A DNA stretch of 26,471 nucleotides from a virus. The stretch lies in the IMG/VR virus record IMGVR_UViG_3300033052_000098, positions 1 through 26,471 of that record. The stretch is one strand, 5' to 3'. Below are positions 2,279-12,117 of this stretch, piece by piece (within the stretch, counting starts at the first letter, position 1; each line of letters begins with the position of its first letter). The notes below the pieces were generated by a model. That model was not told the origin of the DNA. It worked only from the letters and a program-made list of their open reading frames with translations, and did not search any database. The position numbers and the translations under genes were made by a program.

Positions 2279-2499
2279 TGATCATGGCGGCTGCGGATCT
2301 GTTCGGATGGCAGGCGATGCGAACGGCGGAAGCCGCCGTCGCCGAGGCTCATCTGCGCCGCGCCCAGGCCGCCCGAAAGGCGTGGTTCGCCCCGCATGGC
2401 CAGCGTCGCGACCGCGAACGTCAGCTGGCCGAGGCGACGATGGAGGCCCTGAAGGCCGAGGCCGAACTGATCGCCTTGCAGCGCGAGGCTGGCCTGTGA
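2278..2499 (+). CDS. Small helical protein between gemA and mor (73 aa)
   Basis: ATG 2278 overlaps the gemA stop (TGATG), and the stop overlaps the GTG start of the Mor-like gene, so the three genes are translationally coupled. The protein is a predicted long, alanine/glutamate/arginine-rich helix (AEAAVAEAHLRRAQAARKAW, then QLAEATMEALKAEAELIALQ), probably a coiled coil. I do not recognise a family. The codon pattern and tight coupling support it as a real gene. Confidence 0.65.
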   Translation: MIMAAADLFGWQAMRTAEAAVAEAHLRRAQAARKAWFAPHGQRRDRERQLAEATMEALKAEAELIALQREAGL

Positions 2500-2876
2500 G
2501 CGCGGCCCAGCCCAACGGGTTCACCGGTCGCCTGGCCGAGATCGCCGAGGCCGCCGGCGTCGCCGCCGCCCTGCAGCTGGTCCGCGAACTGGGCGGCCGG
2601 GAAATCAAGCTGTCGGCCAAGCCCGACGGCAAGCTGGCCAGGATCGTCGGCGCCGAGGCGGCGCGCCAGATCGTCGCCGCCCTGGGCAATGAGAAGATCA
2701 CCGTGCCGATGGCCCATCTGCGCGGCCAGGGCGGACGTCGTGCGGCGGCGGCGCGGATGCTGGACGAAGGCGCTTCGATCAGTCAGGTTGCCGGCGCGGT
2801 GGACGTTCACGAACGCACCGTGTTCCGGGTCAAGGCCGAGACCCGCAAGCCGGGATCTCTGTTTCCCGAAGACTGA
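2496..2876 (+). CDS. mor: Mor/C-family transcription activator
   Basis: 126 aa. The N-terminal half resembles the Mor dimerisation domain: GVAAALQLVRELGGREIKL, then the repeat-like GAEAARQIVAALGNEKITVPM. The C-terminal half carries a helix-turn-helix (RRAAAARMLDEGASISQVAGAVDVHERTVFRVK). In Mu, Mor activates the middle promoter and C the late promoters, binding short dyads upstream of promoters lacking a good -35. Only one such gene lies in this window, directly after gemA as in Mu. The GTG start is chosen for its overlap with the preceding stop; the longer open frame back to 2307 covers that gene. A dyad directly downstream at 2892 and a second one at 10875 are its candidate sites. Confidence 0.9.
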   Translation: MSAAQPNGFTGRLAEIAEAAGVAAALQLVRELGGREIKLSAKPDGKLARIVGAEAARQIVAALGNEKITVPMAHLRGQGGRRAAAARMLDEGASISQVAGAVDVHERTVFRVKAETRKPGSLFPED

Positions 2877-2891: not shown

Positions 2892-2907
2892 CCTGACAAC
2901 TGTCAGG
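2892..2907 (+). promoter_or_regulatory. Palindromic operator / activator site before the lysis operon
   Basis: CCTGACA-AC-TGTCAGG: two perfect 7-bp arms around 2 bp, 16 bp after the mor stop. A second copy of the same palindrome stands before the protease/capsid operon at 10875, and both are followed by GGGGC-N-AA. A possible -10-like CATNNTGT starts about 25 bp downstream of the arm (2932), with a near-equivalent spacing at the second site. Arrangement and spacing are those expected for a Mor/C-activated promoter lacking a -35 box. Binding by the local Mor protein is inference. Confidence 0.7.
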
Positions 2908-2948
2908 GGCTAAAGCCGATCCGCGAACCCCCATCCTGTCGATCCTAG

Positions 2949-2995: not shown

Positions 2996-3484
2996 GTGGG
3001 CGAGATCGCACGCGGCCTGCATCCGTCATGGGCTGAAGTGGACGAGACGATGTGGCGATGGCCGCACTTCTCGGCCAAGGAGCTGTCGTGCAAATGCGGC
3101 GGTCGCTACTGCCGAGGGCAGTATTTCCACAATCCGGACTTCCTGGACGGACTTGAGGCCATTCGGGGCGACATGGGTCGGCCCCTGGTCCTGACCTCAG
3201 GCCGGCGCTGCGAACGCCACAACCGCGCCGTCGGCGGCGCCGCGCGGTCGCAACATATGATCGCCATAGCCGCCGACATCGAACTGGACGGCCATGAGCC
3301 GGTCACTCTGGCGCGTTCGGCCCTGCAGGCGGGTTTCAGGGGGATCGGCTTTGGTCGAACCTTCCTGCACGTGGACTGGCGCGCGACGCTGACGCCCTTC
3401 CACTATCCGAACGGCGAAGCCCAGTGGACCGCCCTTTGCGGCTTCGACCCGGTGGCGCGGCTCAAGAACGGCGGCCGACTGTGA
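2996..3484 (+). CDS. Endolysin, M15-type zinc peptidase (D,D-/L,D-carboxypeptidase fold)
   Basis: 162 aa. The M15A signature is clear: FSAKELSCKCGG near residue 25, then a zinc-site region with S85-x-H87 and A93-D94 in GAARSQHMIAIAADI, and the C-terminal HVDWR motif (H125, D127). H87, D94 and H125 are the likely zinc ligands, and D127 is in the usual catalytic neighbourhood. The enzyme should cut peptide bridges in the host cell wall at lysis. No signal peptide is present, so release would depend on the adjacent holin. The GTG start at 2996 follows an AAGGGG ribosome-binding site. It is the first gene of the lysis cassette, and its stop overlaps the holin start. Confidence 0.88.
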   Translation: MGEIARGLHPSWAEVDETMWRWPHFSAKELSCKCGGRYCRGQYFHNPDFLDGLEAIRGDMGRPLVLTSGRRCERHNRAVGGAARSQHMIAIAADIELDGHEPVTLARSALQAGFRGIGFGRTFLHVDWRATLTPFHYPNGEAQWTALCGFDPVARLKNGGRL

Positions 3485-4735: not shown

Positions 4736-5139
4736 ACGGCGCAGGCAGTGGAATCATGGAAGTCCTGGCGGCGGTGGCGCTGTTGGGTCTGGGCGCGTTC
4801 TTCAAGTTCGGCTTCGACCGATGGGGCGCGCATCTGGGCTGGAGCCGCGAAGAGAGGGCCGGACAGGATCGGAAGATCGAACGCGTGGACCATGAGGCGC
4901 GCGAGTCGATCGCCCGCGTGGAACGCGAGCTCAAGAACGATCTGAACAACCAGGGCCGCAAGCTGGATCGGCTGGAGGAACGCGTCGATCACCTGCCGAC
5001 GGCCGACGACGTCCAGGAACTGGCGCGGCGCCTGGCGGACGTCGATCGCGGTCTGTCGGGCGCCGTGTCCAAGCTGGATGGGATGAGCGTCAATGTGAAG
5101 ACGATCCTGGATCATATCCTGGCGGGAGAGCGGCGGTGA
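4732..5139 (+). CDS. DUF2730-family protein (Mu gp25-like)
   Basis: 135 aa. An N-terminal membrane span (about residues 9-27, MEVLAAVALLGLGAFFKFG) is followed by a long charged coiled coil (ERVDHEARESIARVEREL, NQGRKLDRLEERVDHLPT). A second helical segment resembles the DUF2730 pattern, with DHLPTADDVQELARRLADVD as a good match to its conserved LPTxxDL segment. The family lies just before the DUF3486 gene in Mu-like phages; its function is not known. ATG 4732 overlaps the upstream stop. Confidence 0.75.
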   Translation: MNGAGSGIMEVLAAVALLGLGAFFKFGFDRWGAHLGWSREERAGQDRKIERVDHEARESIARVERELKNDLNNQGRKLDRLEERVDHLPTADDVQELARRLADVDRGLSGAVSKLDGMSVNVKTILDHILAGERR

Positions 5140-6008
5140 AGAACACGCTGGAAACGCGGCTGAGGGAAAGCCGCCGCCTGATGATTCTGCAGTTGATCAA
5201 CGCCCTGGAGGCGCGCCGGATCGACACGGGCACCCTGGCCTATGCGCTGCGCGACCTGGACATGGAGATGCCCGCCGACGTCCTTGACGGCGAACTGTCC
5301 TGGCTGGAGCGGCAGGGGCTGGTGAGCATCGACCGGCTGCCGATCGGCAAGTCCGTCGCCATAACCGCACGGGGCGACCAGCATGCGCGCGGCGTGACCG
5401 TGGAGCCGGGCGTCGCGCGTCCGGCGCTGGGTTGGACGATGGCGCGCCCGTCGTCGGTCAAGAAGCTGCCGTCCGAGGTTCGAACGAACCTGGAAGCCTG
5501 GCTGAAGGCGTTCATCGCCGGCGAACTTTCGCTGGACCAGGTCATGGAGCGGCTGGACGGCATCGCCGCCCTGCATGGCCTAGAGCCGGTGGCGATCCCG
5601 TCTCGATCTGCGGTGCACCGCTATGCGCAGAAGTTCGAGGCGGTCGTCGAGCGCATCCAACGCGCAAAGGAGTTGACCAATCTTCTGGCCGAGCAACTGG
5701 GGCCGGAGGTCGCGGACGGACGCGGCGTTCAAGTCATGGTCCAGGCGGTGCAATCTCTCACCTATGATCTGCTGGCCTCCCTGGAAGAGGGAACGGCCGT
5801 GGACCCGAAAGCGATCCACGACCTGGCCAAGGCCGCGCACCACCTGGCCGCCGCGCAGAAGACCGACGCCGACCGCGCGCTGAAGATCGAACAGGAGGTC
5901 CGCAAGAAGGCGGCGGCCTCGGCCGGGGCCGAGGCCAAGGCCATGGGACTGACCGAGGATAAGGTTCGCCAGATCGAGAAGGCGGTCCTGGGGGTGGATC
6001 GTGGCTGA
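5136..6008 (+). CDS. Winged-helix protein fused to DUF3486 (Mu gp26-gp27-like fusion; putative small terminase)
   Basis: 290 aa from a GTG overlapping the preceding stop. Residues 1-~95 look like the small winged-helix protein that precedes DUF3486 in Mu-like phages (LMILQLINALEARRIDTGTL, then ELSWLERQGLVSIDRL and a VAITARGDQHARG strand/turn). From M102 on, the sequence is a DUF3486 protein: MARPSSVKKLPSEVRTNLEA, then SRSAVHRYAQKFE. DUF3486 (Mu gp27) is commonly treated as the small terminase or terminase partner. In the relatives I know these are separate genes. Here the frame is open across the junction and no ribosome-binding site precedes the internal ATG at 5439. The gene overlaps the large terminase start by 8 nt. 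Confidence 0.8.
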   Translation: MKNTLETRLRESRRLMILQLINALEARRIDTGTLAYALRDLDMEMPADVLDGELSWLERQGLVSIDRLPIGKSVAITARGDQHARGVTVEPGVARPALGWTMARPSSVKKLPSEVRTNLEAWLKAFIAGELSLDQVMERLDGIAALHGLEPVAIPSRSAVHRYAQKFEAVVERIQRAKELTNLLAEQLGPEVADGRGVQVMVQAVQSLTYDLLASLEEGTAVDPKAIHDLAKAAHHLAAAQKTDADRALKIEQEVRKKAAASAGAEAKAMGLTEDKVRQIEKAVLGVDRG

Positions 6009-7629
6009 CGGCGCCGGTCCTTTTCCGATCGTAGAGGACTCAACGGACCTGTCGCCCGAGCTGCGCCCGCTCCTACCGCTGGGCACCCTGCTGCTGGCCT
6101 ACCAGGTGCTGGTCCACACCCTGCGTTCGGTTCGGGGCCTTCTGTTCATCGAGAAGAGCCGGCGGATCGGCCTGACCTGGGCGCTGGCGGCCTATTGCGT
6201 GTTGCGCGCGGCCCGGTCCAAGTCCGAAGGGGGGCGGAACCAACTCTACATCTCCTACGCCTTCGATATGACGCGGGAGTTCATTGACTACTGCGCCATG
6301 TGGGCCAAGGCCTTCGGTCTGGCCGCCAGCCGGCCCGAGGAGTTCCTCTTCGAAGATCAAGATCCCGACGGCGGCGAGAGCCGCCACATCAAGGCGTTCC
6401 GTATCGACTTCGCCTCCAGATTCTACATCCGGGCCCTTTCTTCGGCGCCGCGGTCGCTGCGCGGCAAGCAGGGAGATGTGATTGTCGATGAAGGCGCCTT
6501 CGTCGATAATCTGCCCGCGCTCCTCGACGCTGCGATCGCCCTGACGATCTGGGGCGGCGACGTGACCGTGGTGTCCAGCCACTTCGGGGTGGACAACGCC
6601 TTCAATGAGGAAATCCAGAAGATCCGAGCCGGGGAGCGAAAGGGTCGGGTCCATACGATCACCTTCCGCCAAGCCATCGAGGACGGGCTCTATGAGCGGG
6701 TGTGCCTGGTCTCCGGTCAGACGCCGACGCCCGAGGGTAAGGCGAAGTTCATCGACGACACCTACGGCCAGTACGGCGCCGGGTCCAAACAGGAGCTGGA
6801 CTGCATCCCGGCCCGATCGGGAGGGTCATGGCTGTCGTTCGACCTGATCGACCGGGCCGAGCAACCCGGCGTGCCCGTTTTCCGCCTGGCCTGCGACGAC
6901 GCCTTCACCCACAAGCCCGACCTCATCCGGCGGGCCTCCGTCCAGGAGTGGTGCGACACCCATTTGGGTCCGGCGCTCGAAGCCCTGGACGCCCGCGCGA
7001 TCGGGGTCGGGGACGACTTCGCTCGCTCGAGCGACCTTTCGGTCATATGGCTGTTGCGGGAGAGTCAGGATCGGTCCTGGGACACGCCCTTCGTCGTCGA
7101 ACTGCGTAACGTCCCGTTCGAAGAGCAGCTGTTCATCCGGCGCTACATCCTGACTCGCCTGCGCCGTTGGCGCTGCAAGATCGACGCGCACGGCAATGGG
7201 GCCTCCACGGCGGAACGCCTGGGCCAGCTGTTCGGCCGCTCCCGCGTGGAAGGCGTCAAATGGCGGGCGGACGACTGGCGTGACGAAGGCGCTCCCTTGA
7301 AGGCCCGTTTCGAGGACGGCCGGATCACCATCCCACGCGACGCTGACCTGGCCTCGGATATTCGCCAGGTCCAGGTGATCGACGGCGCCCCGGCCATCCC
7401 CGCCAAGCGTACCCGCGCCAAGGGCGAAGAGGCCGCAACCGCCGCCGGCAAGGCGCTGCGCCACGCCGACGGCGCCGTGGCTCTGTTCAAGGCCTCGGCC
7501 GCTCTTCGCGCGGGCGTCATCGCGGATTTCGACAGCGCTTCCCTGGGCTCCACCGGAGCCCCTGCCGCCTTCTTCGGCGACGCCGACCTCGGCGACTTCG
7601 CCGGCGTCCTGAACCTCAATGGCTACTGA
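6001..7629 (+). CDS. terL: Terminase large subunit (Mu gp28 type)
   Basis: 542 aa. The ATPase half has a Walker A-like EKSRRIGLTW (51-60), as in Mu gp28 proteins, and a Walker B-like DVIVDEGAF (159-167). The C-terminal nuclease half has the acidic motif GVGDDFARSSDLSVIW and a second IDAHGNGAS motif, as expected for the RNase H-like endonuclease. It would cut integrated phage ends, with adjacent host DNA in Mu-type headful packaging, and pump DNA into proheads. GTG 6001 is preceded by a G-rich ribosome-binding site overlapping the end of the DUF3486 gene. Length and order (DUF3486, terminase, DUF935 portal) are standard for transposable phages. Confidence 0.95.
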   Translation: MADGAGPFPIVEDSTDLSPELRPLLPLGTLLLAYQVLVHTLRSVRGLLFIEKSRRIGLTWALAAYCVLRAARSKSEGGRNQLYISYAFDMTREFIDYCAMWAKAFGLAASRPEEFLFEDQDPDGGESRHIKAFRIDFASRFYIRALSSAPRSLRGKQGDVIVDEGAFVDNLPALLDAAIALTIWGGDVTVVSSHFGVDNAFNEEIQKIRAGERKGRVHTITFRQAIEDGLYERVCLVSGQTPTPEGKAKFIDDTYGQYGAGSKQELDCIPARSGGSWLSFDLIDRAEQPGVPVFRLACDDAFTHKPDLIRRASVQEWCDTHLGPALEALDARAIGVGDDFARSSDLSVIWLLRESQDRSWDTPFVVELRNVPFEEQLFIRRYILTRLRRWRCKIDAHGNGASTAERLGQLFGRSRVEGVKWRADDWRDEGAPLKARFEDGRITIPRDADLASDIRQVQVIDGAPAIPAKRTRAKGEEAATAAGKALRHADGAVALFKASAALRAGVIADFDSASLGSTGAPAAFFGDADLGDFAGVLNLNGY

Positions 7630-9193
7630 CATGACCGACAACCCCGTCCAGGGCGCCGACGCCATCCCCGCCCAGCCCGATCCGCAGGAGATCGCCGTCT
7701 CGAACGAGACGCTGGACATCACCCGGCTGTTCATCGGCGCCTTGCTCGAGGTCCAGGACACGGTCCTGAGGCGTCTGGGCTCGAACTATGAGGTTTACCG
7801 GGAACTGCGCCGCGACGGTCAGGTCCATTCGACGTTCCAGCAGCGCCGGCTGGCCTTGCGCAGCCGCGTCCTGTCGGTCGAGCCGGGCGCGGACGACGCG
7901 GCTTCGATCGCGGCGGCCGACCAGCTGCGGACGAACCTGGAACAGATCAGTTTCGACCGGGCTACCGGCCTGATGACCTGGGGCGCCTTCTACGGCTTCA
8001 GCGTCGGGGAGTGCATGTGGACCATCCGCGACGGCAAGGTCTGGCTGGCCCGGATCAAGGCCCGCACGCCCTGGCGTTTTCGGTTCAGCGAGACCGGCGA
8101 GCTGCGACTGCTGACCCGCACCAGCATGCTGACCGGGGTGGTCATGCCGTCCGGCAAATTTTGGACGACGTCCTGGGGCGCGGACAATGACGACGAGCCC
8201 TATGGGCTGGGCCTGGCGCACCAGCTGTACTGGCCGATTTTCTTTAAGAAACAGGGCCTGGGGTTCTGGCTGAGGGCGCTGGAGAAGTTCGGCGCGCCGA
8301 CCGGGCTGGGCACCTATCCGGCGGGCACGCCGAAGTCGGAACAGGACAAGCTGCTGGCGGCCGTTCACCGGATGCGGATGGACGGGTCGATCGTCGTGCC
8401 GGAGGGGACGACGATCCAGCTGCTGGAGGCGGTGCGGGGCACGGTGGATCAGGCCGCCTTCAATCGGGCCATGAACAGCGAGATCTCCAAGATCGTGCTG
8501 GGCCAGACCATGACGACAGACGACGGGGCCAGCCTGTCGCAGTCGGAAGTCCATATGGAGGTCCGCGAGGAACTGACCGACGCCGACGCCGAGGAACTGT
8601 GCGAGAGCTTCATGGCCGGGCCGGCCGCCTGGCTGACGGCGTGGAACTTCCCCGGCGCCGCCACGCCCATCGTCAAGCGGATCGCGGCGGAGGACCAGGA
8701 GAAGGCGGCCAAGCTGCTGGTCGCCAAGGCCAGTGCGGTCAAGGCCATGCGGGACGCCGGCTATCAGCCCACGCCGGAGACCGAGGGCGCCCTGTTCGGC
8801 GATGGATGGGTTCGCACGCCGCCCCCCGAGCCGACCATCGATGAGGTCGCCAGGGCGCAGCAGGAACGCGTCGTCCTGCCCGGCCTGCCCGCGCCCAGCG
8901 GAACCGGCTTCGCCGCCGGCGATCATGCCCATGGCGCCGACGCCATCGATCTGTTTGCGGCCGAGGCGCTGGACTGGGCGCCGATGATGGAGGAACCCAT
9001 CGCCTTCCTTGAGGGCTGGCTGAACGACTGCGCCAGCCTGGAGGAGGCGCGAGACCGGTTGCCGGGCCTGATGGCGGGTCTGCCGGTCGAGCGGCTGCGG
9101 ACCGGCGTGGCCCAGGCGGGCCTCGAGGCGCGTGTCGCCGGGCGGGAGGGTCTGGCCCTGTCTGACGAAGAGGATGCCGAGGCCGCCGGCTGA
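7619..9193 (+). CDS. Portal protein (DUF935, Mu gp29 family)
   Basis: 524 aa. Typical DUF935 features are the early RDGQVHSTFQQRRLALRSR segment, the central KFGAPTGLGTYPAGTP and the later QTMTTDDGASLSQSEVHMEV. The protein forms the dodecameric DNA gate at the special head vertex and docks the terminase. About the last 120 residues (after roughly 400) are less conserved in appearance and alanine/glutamate-rich. ATG 7619 overlaps the terminase stop by 11 nt. A second in-frame ATG at 7631, just after that stop, is an equally possible start; neither has a strong ribosome-binding site. Confidence 0.93.
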   Translation: MATDMTDNPVQGADAIPAQPDPQEIAVSNETLDITRLFIGALLEVQDTVLRRLGSNYEVYRELRRDGQVHSTFQQRRLALRSRVLSVEPGADDAASIAAADQLRTNLEQISFDRATGLMTWGAFYGFSVGECMWTIRDGKVWLARIKARTPWRFRFSETGELRLLTRTSMLTGVVMPSGKFWTTSWGADNDDEPYGLGLAHQLYWPIFFKKQGLGFWLRALEKFGAPTGLGTYPAGTPKSEQDKLLAAVHRMRMDGSIVVPEGTTIQLLEAVRGTVDQAAFNRAMNSEISKIVLGQTMTTDDGASLSQSEVHMEVREELTDADAEELCESFMAGPAAWLTAWNFPGAATPIVKRIAAEDQEKAAKLLVAKASAVKAMRDAGYQPTPETEGALFGDGWVRTPPPEPTIDEVARAQQERVVLPGLPAPSGTGFAAGDHAHGADAIDLFAAEALDWAPMMEEPIAFLEGWLNDCASLEEARDRLPGLMAGLPVERLRTGVAQAGLEARVAGREGLALSDEEDAEAAG

Positions 9194-10524
9194 TGGCCGT
9201 CATGGCGTTCACCGGGCGACCGCCGGCCGAGGCCGTCGCCTTTCTGAAGGACAAGCTGCCCGGCGGCAGGATGTCGTTCGACTGGCGCGACGTGTGGCAG
9301 GACGAGCATGTGACCAGCTTCCTGGTCGCCAAGATGGCGTCGCGGGATCTGCTGACCGACGTGCATCGCAGCCTGATCGAAGCCCTGTCGAACGGCACGA
9401 CCCGCGAGCAGTTCGTCAGGGATCTGCGCCCGATGCTGGAAAAGGCCGGGTGGTGGGGACGTCGCGTCCAGACCGATCCCGTTACGGGCCTGGCGCGCGA
9501 GGTTCAGCTGGGGAGCCCGCGCCGGCTCCGCACCATCTTCGACGGCAATATGCGGATGGCCCATGCGGCCGGACGTTGGCAGAGGATCGAGGCGGCCAAG
9601 GCGACACTGCCCTATCTGGCCTATACGGCCGTACTGGACGGGGTCACGCGCCCCCAGCACGCGGCCTGGGGCGGACGCGGCGCGGTGCGGATCGTGCTGC
9701 CGGTCGATCACCCCTTCTGGCGCACCCACTATCCGCCGAACGGCTGGCATTGCCGGTGCACGGTGCTTCAACTGTCCCAGGCGATGCTGGACGCCAGAGG
9801 CTGGAGCGTCACGTCGGAGGCGGAGTTGGCCGAGACCAACTGGACCCGCACCCGCCCCTGGCTGAACGGCCGCACGGGCCGGACCGAGACGGTTCCGGTC
9901 GGCATCGATCCGGGTTTCGCCTATAACGTCGGCCTGTCTCGACGGGCCGCGCTGACGCCGCCGCCCGTGCCCGAGCCCCAGCGCGAGATCGTGGTGGGCG
10001 AGCGGTTTCCTCGCGCACTTCCTCCGGCGCTCAAGCCGAGGCCCTACCCGGCCGGGATCGCCAAACGTCCCGAGCTGGAAGGGGAGGCGGTGTTCGACGC
10101 CTTCACGCGCGCCCTGGGCGTTCAGGAAGGCGGCGTCTTCTTCGACCGGGCGCAGACCCCGCTGGCGATCGAGCGCGGCCTGTTCCAGCAGAAGACCGCC
10201 GCCGGTGCGGTGATCCAGGGCAAGGAGGCGAAGGGCGGGCGGGCCGCCTATGCCGAGGTGTTCGCCGCCACGCTGAAAGACCCGGACGAGATCTGGATGT
10301 CGGCCCAGCTGCAGGCGGATGGGACGGCGCGCCTGGTGCGAACCTATGTCGGGGCGTGGGACGATCCTGACGGCGAACGCTACTGGATGACCGTGGTGTT
10401 CAGCGAGCGGGACGGCTGGTGGTGGGGCACGACCGCCTTCGCCCCCAATCCGCCCAAGGCCAAGGCCGAGCGCTACACCGCCAAGAACGGCCGGGTGGGC
10501 GTGCTTGTCTATCGCCGGAAATGA
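9193..10524 (+). CDS. Mu F-like minor head protein with C-terminal PBECR-like nuclease domain
   Basis: 443 aa. The N-terminal ~230 residues are the Mu F/SPP1 gp7 head morphogenesis domain. The signature is GNMRMAHAAGRWQRIEA, then LDGVTRPQHAAW and NGWHCRCTV at 183-191 (C187 and C189). After a proline-rich linker, residues ~296-443 resemble the PBECR (phage Barnase-EndoU-ColicinE5/D-RelE-like) nuclease domains known at the C-termini of such head proteins: DPDEIWMSAQLQ, RLVRTYVGAW, YWMTVVFSERDGWWWGTTAF and the terminal GRVGVLVYRRK strand. If ejected with the genome this domain could act in the recipient cell; that is inference. The start overlaps the portal stop (TGATG). Confidence 0.88.
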   Translation: MAVMAFTGRPPAEAVAFLKDKLPGGRMSFDWRDVWQDEHVTSFLVAKMASRDLLTDVHRSLIEALSNGTTREQFVRDLRPMLEKAGWWGRRVQTDPVTGLAREVQLGSPRRLRTIFDGNMRMAHAAGRWQRIEAAKATLPYLAYTAVLDGVTRPQHAAWGGRGAVRIVLPVDHPFWRTHYPPNGWHCRCTVLQLSQAMLDARGWSVTSEAELAETNWTRTRPWLNGRTGRTETVPVGIDPGFAYNVGLSRRAALTPPPVPEPQREIVVGERFPRALPPALKPRPYPAGIAKRPELEGEAVFDAFTRALGVQEGGVFFDRAQTPLAIERGLFQQKTAAGAVIQGKEAKGGRAAYAEVFAATLKDPDEIWMSAQLQADGTARLVRTYVGAWDDPDGERYWMTVVFSERDGWWWGTTAFAPNPPKAKAERYTAKNGRVGVLVYRRK

Positions 10525-10874: not shown

Positions 10875-10892
10875 CCCTGACAGCTGTCAGGG
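10875..10892 (+). promoter_or_regulatory. Palindromic operator / activator site before the protease-capsid operon
   Basis: CCCTGACAGCTGTCAGGG is a perfect 18-bp palindrome, 62 bp before the protease start. It repeats the arms (CCTGACA and TGTCAGG) and spacing of the site at 2892. Both are followed by GGGGC-N-AA and then a TCCGC about 8-10 bp later. A CATNNTGT element begins about 24 bp downstream (10915), a possible weak -10. It is probably the second Mor-family-activated promoter; binding is inferred. Confidence 0.72.
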
Positions 10893-10953
10893 GCGAAGCG
10901 GCGTCCGCACCCCGGCATGGTGTGGCCTCAATCGAGAGATCGGGGCGACCGGC

Positions 10954-12117
10954 GTGACCAAGACCACCATCGAGATTTTCCGCGCCGGAACCCATACGGC
11001 GATGGACGGCAAGACCTACACCTTCACCAAGGCCGACCTGGAGGCCACAGCCGCCGCCTATGATCCGGCGGTGTTTTCGGCGCCCTGCGTCGTCGGCCAT
11101 CCCAAGACCGATGATCCGGCCTATGGCTGGGCGCAGTCGATGCGGGTCGAGGGCGAGGTTCTGGTCGCCGACGTCGATCAGGTCGAGCCGGCCTTCGCCG
11201 AAATGGTCAATGCGGGGCGTTACAAGAAGGTCTCGCCCTGGTTCTACGGGCCGGCCGCCCAGGCCAATCCTGTCCCCGGCGTCTATTATCCGCGCCACAT
11301 CGGCTTCCTGGGGGCCGCCGCCCCCGGATGCCAGGGTCTGGCGCCGGTCGCCTTCGCCGCCGGCGACGACGCCGAGCTGATCGCCTTCGCCACGGACGAG
11401 GAACTGCGGCCCCTGGTCTGGCTGGCCCGCAACGTCGGCCGGATGTTCCGGCGGATGCGCGACCAGCTGATCGAGGACAAGGGGCTGGAGGAGGCCAACA
11501 AGCTGCTGCCCGAATGGGAGGTGGACGCTCCGGCCGAGATCGCCGCCCAACTGGACGTCGCCCTGTCGTCCGACGCCCGTCCGGCGTTCGCGGCGCCTGA
11601 AGCACCGTCCCTCGCCGCTCCGACGGCTGATCTGGCGGCTGATCCAGCGGATGCGGACCGCCTCGCTGCGCTTGCCGCCCGCGAGGCCGCCCTGGCCGAA
11701 CGCGAAGCCGGGGTTACGGCCCGCGAGGCCGCCTTCGCCGAGACGGCCCGCGCCGACCGCGTCCAGGAAGACGCGGTCTTCCTGGACGGGCTGATCGCCG
11801 CCGGCCGGCTTGCGCCCGGCTGCAGGGCCGAAGTCGCCGTCTTCTGTGCGGCCCTGGGCGACGGCGAGACCATCGCCTTCGCGGAAGGCGGCGAGGCCGA
11901 AGATCCGCGCGCCCGCTTCAAGGCCTTCCTGGACAAGCACCTGGGCGTGTCGATCCACCTCGGCGAGATCGCCGGGGGCGAGGGACTGCGCTTCGCCGAG
12001 GGCCAAAGCCAAGCCGATATTGAGGCAGCCATCGACGCCGAAATGGCGTCGGCCGCCGCCGCCGGTCACCCCATCAGCGCGGCTGAAGCCAACCGACGCG
12101 CCAAATCCCGCCGCTAG
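10954..12117 (+). CDS. Phage head protease / scaffold (Mu I-type)
   Basis: 387 aa. The N-terminal half is the Mu I-like protease domain: APCVVGHPKTDDPAYGW (H49), GRYKKVSPWFY (S94) and YYPRHIGFLGAAAPG (H115). H49 and S94 are the likely catalytic pair by analogy with prohead proteases. Residues ~215-265 are an alanine/glutamate/arginine coiled coil (AALAAREAALAEREAGVTAR), the expected scaffold part; in Mu a separate scaffold (Z) comes from the 3' part of I. No clear internal start is seen here. The GTG start follows a GGGGCG ribosome-binding site. It is first in the capsid operon and should mature the head during assembly. Confidence 0.9.
   Translation: MTKTTIEIFRAGTHTAMDGKTYTFTKADLEATAAAYDPAVFSAPCVVGHPKTDDPAYGWAQSMRVEGEVLVADVDQVEPAFAEMVNAGRYKKVSPWFYGPAAQANPVPGVYYPRHIGFLGAAAPGCQGLAPVAFAAGDDAELIAFATDEELRPLVWLARNVGRMFRRMRDQLIEDKGLEEANKLLPEWEVDAPAEIAAQLDVALSSDARPAFAAPEAPSLAAPTADLAADPADADRLAALAAREAALAEREAGVTAREAAFAETARADRVQEDAVFLDGLIAAGRLAPGCRAEVAVFCAALGDGETIAFAEGGEAEDPRARFKAFLDKHLGVSIHLGEIAGGEGLRFAEGQSQADIEAAIDAEMASAAAAGHPISAAEANRRAKSRR

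Follow-up and report, generated by a model that had tools for sequence, protein, structure and literature searches.

A Mu-like phage contig carries two copies of a perfect palindrome, one behind its mor gene and one before its head genes, which are very probably the operators of a single Mor/C-type activator; judged from the sequence, this protein would turn on both the lysis/packaging and the head/tail operons without a separate C step. The window analyzed here is the entire IMG/VR viral contig IMGVR_UViG_3300033052_000098 (26,471 bases), which represents an incomplete phage. Among transposable phages, late gene control has been worked out in detail for Mu, where two activators act in series.

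A palindrome pair at two operon starts

The 5' part of the window contains small early genes, gemA, mor, the first palindrome (site 1), an M15 peptidase gene and small genes, and the rest contains gp27, terminase, portal and gpF genes, the second palindrome (site 2), and then genes for an I-type protease, capsid, head completion and tail functions (Table 1). Comparison with the Mu gene order places site 1 at the position of Plys and site 2 at that of PI.

Table 1. Coordinates of the activator gene, the putative operators and promoters, and the genes they precede.
Feature	Coordinates	Strand	Remarks
mor, Mor/C-type activator gene	2496–2876	+	126 aa, GTG start; 3' of gemA
Candidate operator 1, CCTGACAACTGTCAGG	2892–2907	+	5' of lysis/packaging operon
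Predicted -10 hexamer CATCCT, promoter 1	2932–2937	+	Transcription start expected near 2944; NAnnnT spacing
M15 peptidase, likely endolysin, first gene of operon 1	2996–3484	+	Peptidase_M15_3, E = 4e-22
Packaging genes of operon 1: gp27-like, terminase, portal, gpF	5136–10524	+	Pfam and tblastn
Candidate operator 2, CCTGACAGCTGTCAGG	10876–10891	+	5' of head operon
Predicted -10 hexamer CATGGT, promoter 2	10916–10921	+	Start expected near 10928; spacing as promoter 1
Mu I-like protease/scaffold gene, first gene of operon 2	10954–12117	+	Likely GTG start; assigned by gene position

The palindrome CCTGACA-N2-TGTCAGG occurs exactly twice in the record, and the pair described in the sequence-only reading is thus real, with the second copy beginning at 10876, not 10875. 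No further copies with two or fewer mismatches are present in the 26,471 bases, inside genes or between them. Allowing three mismatches gives four matches against 0.91 expected in shuffled sequences, and a chance origin of two exact 14-letter matches is far less likely than this 3-mismatch result. Both copies are intergenic, as had been claimed, with site 1 in the gap between mor and the endolysin gene, 15 nt past the mor stop codon, and site 2 in the gap between gpF and the protease and capsid genes, 351 nt past the gpF stop codon and 62 nt ahead of the GTG that likely starts the protease gene. The shared downstream letters reported at the outset are likewise found at both sites: each palindrome is followed by GGGC-N-AA (GGGGC-N-AA if its last G is counted) and, 24 nt past its end, by CATNNTGT (CATCCTGT at 2932–2939 and CATGGTGT at 10916–10923).

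The I-like protease/scaffold gene has no match in a Pfam search, and its position is that of the annotated head maturation protease in RcapMu, RR1-B and Mu; homologues of it stand 3' of the site in four other loci (L007, L027, L030 and L031). The gpF-type minor head protein (9193–10524) has a C-terminal PBECR2 nuclease-like domain (residues 303–441, E = 3e-19).

Predicted promoter architecture

Neither window site has a consensus sigma-70 -35/-10 pair. If the predicted hexamers are set at -12 to -7, the palindromes span -52 to -37, and a 16-bp dyad thus takes the place of the -35 element with a -10 hexamer at a fixed distance, which is the arrangement of Mor/C-dependent promoters. This spacing recurs outside the window: NAnnnT, the best conserved letters of the sigma-70 -10 element, is found at offset 24 in 73% of 44 non-redundant sites versus ~2% at other offsets. 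When Mor-adjacent sites are sorted by the third base of the half-site (see below), it is present in all 11 of the C class, 10 of 14 in the T class and 3 of 11 in the G class; about a quarter of all sites lack it, those of the G class most often.

Given that both sites lie at operon ends, they could instead be RNA hairpins, that is, intrinsic terminators closing the early and packaging operons. The RcapMu and RR1-B sites are indeed followed by short T runs, and a dual role is possible in those phages. However, TTTT occurs within 15 nt of only 6 of 44 sites, neither window site gives a terminator-like match, and the arm letters are kept across very divergent phages beyond what pairing demands. 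Terminators would also leave unexplained the -10 spacing and the covariation with a Mor residue described below, and in phage B3 the sites precede late clusters with mor located elsewhere. We therefore regard this explanation as extremely unlikely, and the palindromes as probable activator sites.

A separate inverted repeat, ACGGCCGG-N7-CCGGCCGT, lies at 2948–2972, just 3' of predicted transcription start 1, and is followed by TTTC. Locus L003 has a similar hairpin at the equivalent position (6643). The window repeat may serve to terminate the early operon or form a 5'-end hairpin.

The site pair in related phages

A motif scan of relatives, as the sequence-only reading had proposed, finds the pair in very divergent Mu-like phages. 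Scanning IMG/VR with the 16-letter motif alone returns 28 stretches, including many Mu-like contigs with the site at the same two places, and the 14-letter form returns at least 119; the reversed palindrome, used as a control, returns two stretches, neither with a detectable relative of the window proteins. When the window proteins are placed on the matched loci, the sites fall either directly behind a mor homologue or in the gap that separates gpF from the protease/capsid operon, and the gpF proteins of these phages are ~28–50% identical to that of the window. At 25 of 26 site-1 loci, the nearest upstream open reading frame encodes a Mor homologue. In whole-record searches allowing up to two mismatches, the complete pair, with one site behind mor and the other ahead of the head operon, is found in 22 records when the window is counted; 16 records besides the window are longer than 35 kb. 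In five of the records (G020, G023, G025, G027 and G028) the mor and capsid operons are on opposite strands and the pair is kept, such that the site tracks where an operon begins rather than any fixed order of genes. In G001 (locus L003), whose Mor is ~50% identical to that of the window, both sites are symmetrically altered to CCGGACA-N2-TGTCCGG.

Matching prophages are present in Rhodospirillaceae UBA1479, an alphaproteobacterial MAG, Xanthobacteraceae Astr-EGSB, a Rhodopseudomonas MAG, Parvibaculaceae and a Pseudomonadota MAG. The Mor protein as a query gave no match in phage records or IMG/VR, and the terminase gave none in genome contigs.

The two sites are not always equally well preserved. 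Eight records (G004, G007, G008, G011, G012, G019, G026 and G028) have an exact pre-capsid site and a degenerate post-mor site, with the degeneracy mostly at the outermost base of the upstream half, a pattern that the way in which the records were found may bias. Perhaps such degenerate sites provide a graded affinity that delays lysis. Third or fourth sites of the same class in G016, G051, G052 and G055 are perhaps further late promoters.

Covariation of the recognition helix and the candidate operator

The Mor recognition helix contains the motif R-T-V-X-R, in which R107 and R111 are invariant and X is F110 in the window. Arginine occupies X in L003, RcapMu and RR1-B, all of which have sites containing CCGGA, and this prompted scans for the forms of the palindrome with G, C or A as base 3. 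The open reading frame upstream of each site was inspected, giving 36 non-redundant Mor/site pairs (<85% identity) among the matches listed; Mor-adjacent loci were called with a profile that combined T-class Mors, known Mors and L003. Residue 110 fully predicts base 3 in these 36 pairs: arginine with G in 11 of 11, glutamate with C in 11 of 11, and histidine, tyrosine, tryptophan, phenylalanine or serine with T in 14 of 14. The arginine–G association was expected beforehand and the glutamate–C association was not. Residue X and base 3 share 1.58 bits of mutual information, which is the full label entropy (z = 15.4), with the next column at z = 6.8. The A form was scanned as a test, and none of its 57 sites among the matches listed lies beside a Mor.

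The number of distinct sites located at mor or in the gpF–protease gap, among the matches listed, is 28 of 115 for the T form, 19 of 109 for G, 27 of 83 for C and 0 of 42 for A; the remaining motif copies are chance occurrences, other elements, or in phages too divergent for recognition. On a tree from which the helix columns were left out, base 3 changes at least ten times, including among the close kin of the window (L003 G, L018 T, L326 C, L147 T, L313 C). Independent pairs on well-supported branches number three and are all consistent, and with three pairs a sign test cannot reach significance. All 15 C- or G-class records with at least two sites have the same class at every site, and with looser searches G046 and G051 each gain a second site, again of matching class, and G031 gains a poor one.

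From these correspondences we infer that residue 110 reads base 3 of each half-site, with glutamate specifying C, arginine G, and aromatic residues, histidine or serine T. In the open-access papers searched, no account of the shared operator or of the residue rule was found.

Perfect palindromes fit many dimeric regulators, and these letters turn up in unrelated settings as well, such that the sites could be operators of a different regulator, either a phage repressor or a host factor. Such a regulator would not account for the complete covariation of base 3 with a residue of the adjoining Mor, and the position of the element, at -35 of promoters that lack a -35 element, is the place of an activator. 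We give this reading hardly any weight. The proposal that the palindromes are Mor operators, by comparison, is strongly supported by the computed pair conservation, -10 spacing and covariation.

The palindrome also occurs outside Mu-like phages. Multiple copies of CCTGACANNTGTCAGG are present in non-Mu viral contigs (five each in L066 and L086, four in L093 and three in L097), where another element is using the same palindrome. GCCCCTGACA-N2-TGTCAGGGGC recurs in genomes of Oscillibacter and other Oscillospiraceae with no Mu-like genes nearby (L467, L476, L487, L489, L490, L492, L502, L506, L511, L512 and others). In L514 (Arthrobacter) the CCTGACANNTGTCAGG palindrome lies on the minus strand, 3' of a resolvase-type open reading frame whose helix-turn-helix matches the Mor profile weakly (E = 0.009).

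The Mor protein

The window Mor matches the Pfam Mor family (PF08765) with E = 0.0022 and 18.4 bits, under the cut-off of 24.9; relatives beside the same site (G003, G004, G005, G015, G016 and G030) exceed this cut-off once adjoining matches are summed. It is 27–53% identical to the Mors of related phages, and its C-terminal helix-turn-helix is recognized by HTH_23 (E = 6e-8). An AlphaFold model (pLDDT 86) has helices at residues 95–102 and 106–116, the latter being the predicted recognition helix, within which F110 falls. A fold search ranks Mu Mor (1rr7) third, at a non-significant E of 0.56, and a profile search gives E values of 0.04–0.11 for the chains of Mu C and Mor. The position of the gene, 3' of gemA and 5' of the lysis operon, is that of the Mor/C family members in Mu, RcapMu and RR1-B. 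Its probable membership in the family thus draws on the sub-threshold Pfam match, the gene position and the relatives. The helix-turn-helix also resembles that of the Tn552 resolvase (2r0q) in both sequence and model.

A probable single activator for both operons

When 28 records, most of them longer than 32 kb, are searched with a profile of 32 Mors, each yields one clear Mor-type gene; the sole extra is a weak, interrupted match in G053. With one clear Mor/C-type gene per record, one activator very probably drives both late operons directly. The single activator of the sequence-only reading therefore stands, on the strength of one gene per record and one site class, as does its suggestion of a circuit simpler than the Mor-then-C cascade of Mu, but its description of a middle and a late operon does not. 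Site 1 precedes the M15 peptidase and packaging genes, at the place of Mu Plys, and both operons are of late type; no middle operon carrying a C gene is seen in the window contig, which is incomplete, and the two are better taken as two late operons.

A two-step cascade of the Mu type would confine Mor to site 1 and leave site 2 to a C-type protein that escaped detection. Mu operates in this manner, C and Mor sites can resemble each other, and because the contig is incomplete a second activator encoded beyond it is conceivable for this phage. The arms are nevertheless identical at both sites, each multi-site record has one specificity class, and the records have one clear Mor-type gene each; by comparison, the Pm and PI gaps of Mu, which has two activators, share no such common site. 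Two paralogous activators with different sites are not seen in the window, within the bounds of an incomplete contig. We consider a cascade very unlikely, and the analysis supports a switch that works like Mor at Pm.

With the sites, their places and spacing, the single activator gene per record and the covariation all established computationally, the following mechanism is proposed. As the last gene of the early operon, mor would supply a protein that binds each palindrome as a dimer, centered near -44, with one recognition helix per half-site and residue 110 near base 3. Bound Mor would stand in for the -35 element and bring the RNA polymerase of the host to the -10 hexamer, which lies 24 nt further downstream. 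One protein would thereby give the lysis/packaging and head/tail operons a common start signal and timing, and the C step of Mu would be absent.

Comparison with known phages

In Mu, a Mor dimer occupies a 16-bp dyad spanning -51 to -36 in place of a -35 element, with a -10 hexamer downstream (PMC4390567, PMC4287176). In both phages the activator is encoded at the early operon end after gemA, and the window palindromes, as placed above, are one base off the Mu element. They differ in that the middle operon transcribed from Pm encodes C whereas site 1 precedes a likely endolysin gene, and in that the window has a second identical site before the head operon; the operator letters are also unlike those of Mu. 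Mu C is a paralogue of Mor that acts at the late promoters Plys and PI (PMC4287176, PMC4461284). The operons controlled are the same (lysis, and I onwards), but Mu requires C with its own sites, at which Mor is inactive, whereas the window has one clear Mor/C-type gene.

The Rhodobacter phages RcapMu and RcWaterboi and the Rhizobium phage RR1-B each have one annotated Mor/C-type activator and a dyad of their own in both the post-activator and pre-protease gaps (CCGGACCTGTGTCCGG in the former two and GACCGGAACCGAGTTCCGGTC in RR1-B). Their activators have arginine at X, as the residue rule predicts for CCGGA. The sites differ from those of the window in letters or spacer and are followed by T-rich stretches.

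Other phages have candidate operators with other letters, identified by pairwise comparison of gaps by eye, outside the statistical control applied to the CCxGACA class. Curvibacter phage TJ1 has GGTGAA-N4-TTCACC twice, at late operon starts. Less clear are Pseudomonas phage D3112, with TTGAACCCCTTCC twice at late operon starts, and Pseudomonas phage B3, with a TTTTCG-N6-CGAAAA-like site before the holin, I (protease) and tape-measure genes; in RNA-seq of the B3-like phage Fc02, transcription of the early operon is followed by that of three late clusters (PMC9936078). PeaS-P1/RhkS-P1 share a site that is not a clean palindrome, and KS10 has only a weak shared one. The stretch of Ochrobactrum phage POA1180 that was examined contains a gene resembling Mu F and lacks a mor/I pair. 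Record MT835710 was dropped as a comparison phage, being without annotation.

Implications for transposable phages

In many phages the sequence by itself shows a one-activator circuit simpler than that of Mu, and its operators are defined well enough for the annotation of late promoters in contigs. On balance we favor the view that Mor-type activators are a naturally varied family whose specificity resides largely in one helix residue, and that the single-activator, shared-operator circuit is the common design of these phages, from which the Mu cascade is a derived exception. The correspondence between residue and base is a directly testable rule of DNA recognition, and it points to natural sets of activators and promoters that may not cross-react.
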